Shown here one piece after another: positions 2,503 through 2,615 of a DNA stretch of 23,385 nt. A program made the translations under genes and the position numbers. How positions within the stretch are numbered: position 1 is the stretch's first letter; each line of letters opens with the position of its first letter. Below the pieces are notes generated by a model. The model was not told the DNA's origin. It worked only from the letters and a program-made list of their open reading frames with translations, and ran no database searches. Origin of the DNA: a virus; the IMG/VR virus record IMGVR_UViG_3300047560_001726, positions 1 through 23,385 of that record; one strand, given 5' to 3'.

Positions 2503-2615
2503 GATAGATTCGTACCGGGACCCCAAGCTCCGGGCGGATTTACTGGGTGCGCAAGGTTCTCCATCACGTGCAAAGGGGGCCTCACGAACCCCCCGCCTAG
2601 TAGCCCGCATCTATC
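2503..2615 (+). ncRNA. Candidate structured RNA, about 113 nt, unknown class
   Basis: This noncoding stretch folds by hand into a branched structure: outer helix 2503-2509/2609-2615 (GATAGAT/ATCTATC), adjacent helix 2534-2537/2605-2608, helix 2541-2547/2596-2602, and hairpins 2515-2519/2529-2533, 2548-2552/2568-2572 and 2575-2579/about 2589-2594. Three helices contain one G-T pair in plus-strand reading (2519-2529, 2545-2598, 2551-2569). These are allowed wobbles in a plus-strand RNA but A-C mismatches on the minus strand, so I favour the plus strand, opposite to the flanking genes. I see no clear plus-strand promoter. It matches no RNA family I recognise and could instead be a DNA or antisense element. 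Confidence 0.4.

Follow-up and report, generated by a model that had tools for sequence, protein, structure and literature searches.

A structured RNA between two phage genes

What kind of RNA lies between two genes of an environmental phage, and from which strand is it read? The question is raised by a 269-nt gap between the minus-strand genes 2083–2385 and 2655–2876 in the window, by which we mean the whole stretch of viral DNA analyzed here (IMG/VR record IMGVR_UViG_3300047560_001726, 23,385 nt). The gap holds a 7-bp helix, 2503–2509 (GATAGAT) with 2609–2615 (ATCTATC) in plus-strand letters, which a preliminary description had drawn as the closing helix of a folded RNA at 2503–2615, transcribed from the plus strand against its neighbors and located next to a terminator and a promoter. 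The terminator and promoter were indeed found, both on the minus strand, and the features that frame the gap are as follows.

2083–2385, minus strand: downstream gene, encoding an Hjc/VRR-NUC-like nuclease (PHROG 93 endonuclease, E = 3e-14; Pfam matches subthreshold only)
2413–2440, minus strand: predicted sigma-70-type promoter, TTGACG-16-TATACT, for the next operon
2449–2471, minus strand: predicted intrinsic terminator, 3′ of the element
2481–2493, no strand assigned: 13-bp palindrome CTAACATTGTTAG, with about two dozen such sites across the window; located 3′ of the element in relatives too
2655–2876, minus strand: upstream 73-aa gene, upstream of the element also in the relatives L104 and L117
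2873–3520, minus strand: DUF3310 gene, in many relatives the one that directly precedes the element

Some wider features of the window accompany this locus. The palindrome at 2481–2493 belongs to a 13-bp near-palindrome, CTAACAWTGTTAG, with 24 copies between 1029 and 19151 at two or fewer mismatches (0.14 expected), for example at 10433–10445, 12481–12493, and 16628–16640, and it is present in related phages too. At no fewer than five sites, a minus-strand gene starts with the ATG of the repeat, other copies lying at junctions or within genes, and the repeat could be a dispersed operator, comparable to mycobacteriophage stoperators, or a start-associated sequence. Two near-perfect sigma-70 promoters are located on the minus strand at 12534–12562 (12/12 matches) and 17358–17386 (11/12); the former precedes the terminator of the element by ∼10 kb, which suggests a long operon that ends in the element. 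The intergenic region 17531–17920 contains recurring words of the AAACGTAAC type as well as a direct repeat of 33 nt (17824–17856 and 17888–17920, 94% identical) and is a candidate control or origin region.

Folding of the window sequence by itself gave no signal beyond shuffles on either strand alone (plus, z = −1.04, 31/200 shuffles as good; minus, z = 0.03, 103/200). Database searches of the window were equally silent. Rfam 15 contained no family that reached its gathering threshold in the window, and only chance-level matches were obtained in the window region, its relatives, and eight further loci; the below-threshold matches to asX2 and Trp_leader were rejected, as the terminator hairpin is their source. 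Searches for tRNA and tmRNA were negative, and blastn of the window intergenic region against phages returned terminator-like stretches only. It was the comparative data described below, and not the folding of a single sequence, that bore out a structured RNA at 2503–2615, and they place this segment at the core of a larger element spanning 2496–2656 on the minus strand.

Related elements are widespread in environmental phages

Relatives were reached through the proteins that flank the gap, which led to IMG/VR contigs of the same gene order. A similar element, in the same gap and on the gene strand (equivalent to the minus strand of the window), was found in five of these (L026, L039, L069, L050, and L081). 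A conserved 16-mer pattern identified 37 loci, 31 of them genuine, while six matches (L122, L125, L130, L131, L134, and L136) were dropped because the structure was absent. Scanning with a structural pattern retrieved at least 120 IMG/VR stretches and one betaproteobacterial metagenome-assembled genome (L313). Together, the pattern-scan matches and earlier loci provided at least 92 unique sequences, which include the doubtful L229, in which P1 does not close, and, for L236, a further frame of one site already counted, which was dropped from the representatives. Removal of close relatives left 51 representatives, the window included.

By contrast with IMG/VR, blastn with three members against 50,697 phage records found nothing, and the element is absent from the examined regions of cultured phages with a related nuclease (Rollin, HHU4, Xp15, and Effie) and from phage DSL-LC04 (20–61 kb). 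No prior description of this RNA was found in the open-licence literature, and the RNA family and its fold are almost certainly new. "New" here refers to the family and the fold; the function could still be of a known type.

The family fold contains three pseudoknots and is read from the gene strand

The family RNA is ∼150–160 nt in length and forms, on the gene strand, six helices, three of which are pseudoknots. From 5′ to 3′, the PKa 5′ strand, located at the upstream stop codon, is followed by the P2 5′ strand, a linker that is usually AGCCU, the P1 5′ strand ending in AGAT, and the bases GYGA; the second half comprises the P2 3′ strand, hairpin A, hairpin B, an A, the P1 3′ strand beginning with ATCT, and a C-run. 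The PKa 3′ strand lies in the hairpin A loop, and the loop of hairpin B begins with A and carries a G-run with which the 3′ C-run pairs to form PKb. P1 thus crosses P2, PKa, and PKb, generating the three pseudoknots. The conserved joining bases are C-C-U before P1, GYGA after it, and the A that is first in the hairpin B loop.

Covariation supports this fold. In the 51 representatives, without any fitting, P1 position 5 is TA in 34 and CG in 16, position 6 is GC in 43 and AT in 7, and position 7 is AT in 17, TA in 13, and GC in 12, where the search pattern had fixed the P1 inner bases and, at positions 5 and 6, allowed only R and Y on the 3′ side, leaving the 5′ letters of positions 4–7 and the 3′ letter of position 7 unconstrained. 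The closing helix of the preliminary description, which is P1, is therefore a conserved helix, kept in relatives through compensatory changes. In alignment A6 (56 members), which was fitted to a model and hence is biased towards it, 97.2% of cells are paired (slid controls, 27–41%), two-sided changes are seen in 407 cells (shuffle mean, 124), and the covariation score is 0.81 (shuffled, 0.20; slid, 0.04–0.12). All 10 pairs of hairpin A covary in this alignment. PKb exceeds the five G-C pairs of the search pattern through further, covarying A-T, C-G, or G-C pairs. For PKa, the median match of a member's own strands is 9 bp, compared with 7 for strands swapped among members, and 36 of 51 members lie above the swapped 95th percentile; equivalent strands covary in relatives, for example ACTGCGAG/CTCGCAGT. 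For P2, the corresponding medians are 7 and 5, with 20 of 51 members above that percentile.

The wobble pairs of A6 indicate the strand. On the gene strand there are 63 G-U cells and 7 A-C cells, a count that the fitting of A6 on this strand somewhat favors, and this excess identifies the gene strand as the functional one. On these sequence comparisons, the conserved fold is read from the gene strand (minus in the window), in the same sense as the neighboring genes. The plus strand had been proposed from three G-T pairs, too few in one sequence to decide the question. A plus-strand counter-transcribed RNA is extremely improbable: some helices do gain one drawable G-T pair on that strand, and its folding z score is slightly better, but the fold, the synteny, and the terminator are all on the gene strand, and in every homolog examined the conserved structure is sense with the flanking genes. 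In addition, no plus-strand promoter into the element was found, the only plus-strand site (2615–2644) being weak and directed away from it. The second helix singled out from the plus strand, 2541–2547/2596–2602 (TACTGGG/CCTAGTA), can be drawn there with one G-T pair but is absent from the conserved fold, in which its bases fall in other helices or linkers.

The window copy is very probably a diverged family member

The window copy retains all six helices, in order, and is parsed as follows.

2496–2656, minus strand: whole structured RNA element (syntenic and structural homologs; descriptor match; best R3 match)
2649–2656, minus strand: PKa 5′ strand AAAGGGGG, overlapping the stop codon (2655–2657) of the 73-aa gene; pairs with 2572–2579 (swap control)
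2632–2638, minus strand: P2 outer 5′ strand TCCCGCC; pairs with 2591–2597
2624–2628, minus strand: P2 inner 5′ strand GTAGC; pairs with 2600–2604, positioned as P2 of relatives
2609–2615, minus strand: P1 5′ strand GATAGAT (compensatory changes at positions 5–7 in the 51 representatives; also alignment A6)
2600–2604, minus strand: P2 inner 3′ strand GCTAC (from the sequence)
2591–2597, minus strand: P2 outer 3′ strand GGCGGGG (structural parse)
2586–2590, minus strand: hairpin A 5′ arm GGTTC (structural parse; helix covaries in relatives)
2572–2579, minus strand: PKa 3′ strand CCCCCTTT, in the hairpin A loop (structural parse and swap control)
2555–2559, minus strand: hairpin A 3′ arm GAACC (structural parse)
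2530–2533, minus strand: hairpin B 5′ arm CCGG (structural parse)
2520–2525, minus strand: PKb 5′ strand TGGGGT, in the hairpin B loop; pairs with 2496–2501 (flanking pairs covary in relatives)
2515–2518, minus strand: hairpin B 3′ arm CCGG (structural parse and descriptor); 5 nt from P1, mostly 1 nt in relatives
2503–2509, minus strand: P1 3′ strand ATCTATC (same covariation as the P1 5′ strand)
2496–2501, minus strand: PKb 3′ strand ACCCCA (covariation in relatives, sequence only in the window)

An alternative hairpin A can be formed in the window by 2580–2586 with 2550–2556 (CGTGAGG/CCTTGCG).

Compared with the family, P1 of the window (GATAGATGCG...AATCTATC) has 6 or more bp with the inner AGAT/ATCT and the GYG that follows. 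PKb is present as a G-run in the hairpin B loop and a C-run 3′ of P1, with hairpin B set an unusual 5 nt from P1. P2 spans the P1 5′ strand, an arrangement that alone is no better than chance (186/1000 shuffles as good), and PKa has 11 pairs, equaled in 0/100 swaps and 13/1000 shuffles. The element is also placed as in relatives, sense, in one copy, and between the upstream stop codon and the terminator or next gene. A joint descriptor, whose tolerance of a 5-nt hairpin B–P1 gap was chosen with the window sequence known, matches the window once, on the minus strand, as well as 136 locus strands, and has 0 matches in a 13.9-Mb first-order Markov control. The pattern GATAGATGYG-N78-107-AATCTATC-N1-4-CCCC, which covers P1 and the C-run and imposes no constraint from the other helices, retrieves nine IMG/VR stretches, all nine of them family members, and matches the window minus strand too. 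Moreover, L104 and L117 have the gene order of the window (73-aa gene, element, terminator, nuclease).

The covariance models, in turn, score the window copy weakly. Model R3, which was built on other members and cannot represent pseudoknots, leaving P2, PKa, and PKb outside it, has its top window match at 2495–2641 on the minus strand with only 9.4 bits (E = 0.28), short of significance. Model R2, also built on other members, aligned the window copy in register at 2.4 bits, and model R1, likewise built, gave no match at the position of the element. Among the joining bases, the A of the hairpin B loop and one C are kept, GCGG replaces GYGA, and the U before P1 is lost, along with most of the AGCCU linker. 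Because it differs at these conserved bases, the window copy is, judged from its sequence, a divergent or decaying member. These lost bases and low scores are what would be expected of a chance or convergent fold, or of a decayed relic that is not a working member, but such an origin is improbable given the six helices in order, the empty descriptor control, the family specificity of the P1 and C-run pattern in IMG/VR, and the genomic site shared with L104 and L117. We consider it very probable that the window copy belongs to the new family.

The element is carried between cistrons

Among those of the 92 members with an open frame detected upstream, PKa begins at or near the stop codon of that frame, at a median of −4 nt. 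At the other end, a terminator-like T-run is present in 16 of the 92 members; in those that lack one, the next start preceded by a ribosome-binding site (RBS) is a median of 24 nt past the C-run, and most members without a terminator lie 19–30 nt ahead of that start. The next gene encodes an Hjc/VRR-NUC-like nuclease in 48/92 members, and a DUF3310 or 73-aa gene is upstream in 30/92. No promoter of the element's own was found, promoter-like sites preceding 2 of 48 elements vs. 7 of 92 control stretches, and such sites are located 3′ of the element in 12/45. Each of 16 long records has exactly one copy. The placement and promoter data thus indicate that the upstream gene shares its mRNA with the element in every context, the downstream gene only in some.

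In two relatives (L098:5057–5206 and L099:1966–2115), the element occupies a different gene gap, directly before the AAGGAG-ATAACA-ATG of a short gene that sits upstream of the DUF3310 block, indicating that it moved during evolution. Other elements of these phages are closed by G-runs and C-runs (CGGGGGGAAAGC...GTTAGTACCCCC and GGGGGTAGCAAGAGCGGTCGTTA...CGCTACCCCC). They are located just past the stop codon of a 73-aa gene homolog in L138, L139, L154, L186, and L209 and before a gene upstream of or adjoining the nuclease gene in L005, L007, and L027. Rfam gave no credible match for those of L005, L027, L138, L154, L186, and L209, and they may form one or two additional families of structured RNA.

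Possible functions of the RNA

The comparative data support the fold, the strand, the placement, and the single copy per genome. Collectively, the explanation we judge probable is that the window RNA is a diverged representative of a new family of phage RNAs and serves as a cis-acting structured mRNA domain on the minus strand; a role in cis on the carrying mRNA is, taken separately, slightly favored, and any one biochemical activity is well short of being likely. In such a model, the element would be transcribed as a 3′ untranslated or intercistronic part of the DUF3310–73-aa operon. Once the terminating ribosome has left the stop codon, PKa would tie the 5′ end into the core and PKb the 3′ end, and the folded domain may then act on its own mRNA by separating or stabilizing the neighboring cistrons, perhaps through an exonuclease block or through defined processing, including possible self-cleavage. 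The conservation of unpaired bases points to something beyond passive blocking.

A free, trans-acting RNA, cut from the mRNA or ending at the terminator and binding, for example, a host or phage protein, is unlikely. Such an RNA would fit the single copy at a conserved site, the variable neighboring genes, the compact fold with both ends sealed, and the conserved unpaired bases; however, neither an own promoter nor a fixed processing site was seen, and the element is always sense and fitted between cistrons. Slightly less likely still is a ligand-sensing riboswitch for the next gene, often a nuclease or replication gene. The knotted, ribozyme- or aptamer-like fold, the short distance to the next start in terminator-free members, and the frequent downstream nuclease are consistent with one, but pairing of the P1 and PKb 3′ strands with the RBS is not above chance (35 leaders, mean z = −0.11), and in the terminator group the promoter of the next gene is 3′ of the element. 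RBS sequestration was rejected on this chance-level pairing, and it appears that the next gene is not switched through masking of its RBS. A stimulator of stop-codon readthrough or frameshifting for the upstream gene, as a pseudoknot at a stop codon might suggest, is hardly credible: an open upstream frame runs across the element in 7 of 43 cases, a frequency not above that of the other frames (7 and 3), and readthrough was rejected because that frame is not kept open.

Known RNAs provide partial parallels to a cis-acting domain. Small self-cleaving ribozymes with pseudoknots, such as twister, pistol, hatchet, and HDV-like RNAs, are common in metagenomes, and RNAs this knotted with invariant joining bases usually bind or catalyze something. 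The predicted fold of the element resembles these ribozymes in being compact and knotted with conserved joining bases, but none of them matched in Rfam scans, and its helix order differs from those of HDV, twister, and pistol. That the family is a new catalytic or ligand-binding class, a self-cleaving ribozyme or riboswitch with three interlocked pseudoknots that processes or controls the operon around a Holliday-junction-type nuclease in environmental phages, is a tentative proposal, which we hold to be possible but not probable.

The EAR (epsC) RNA is an intercistronic processive antitermination element of Bacilli, and lambda sib retroregulation involves a 3′-UTR structured domain. The epsC motif and the L17 downstream element, likewise a 3′-UTR structured domain, were reported in PMC2864571. 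The element shares with EAR its intercistronic, mRNA-embedded location, a pseudoknot, and a similar size, but unlike EAR it has no Rfam match, is phage-borne, has another helix order, and often has no terminator after it. As with the L17 downstream element and sib, the structure comes right after a stop codon and could act on the upstream mRNA, although its structure, with three pseudoknots, is unrelated, and it occurs in a single copy next to a nuclease gene. GOLLD and ROOL, known from phages and metagenomes, are large, ornate, and functionally unassigned (PMC12286853); the element is likewise an ornate RNA of phages and metagenomes, but those RNAs are far larger and form separate families.

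These findings reveal a widespread and strongly covarying RNA family that is missing from Rfam 15 and went undetected in the cultured-phage collection searched. The helix map, the strand, and the ∼90 natural variants now suffice for direct tests of self-cleavage, ligand binding, and an effect on the mRNA.
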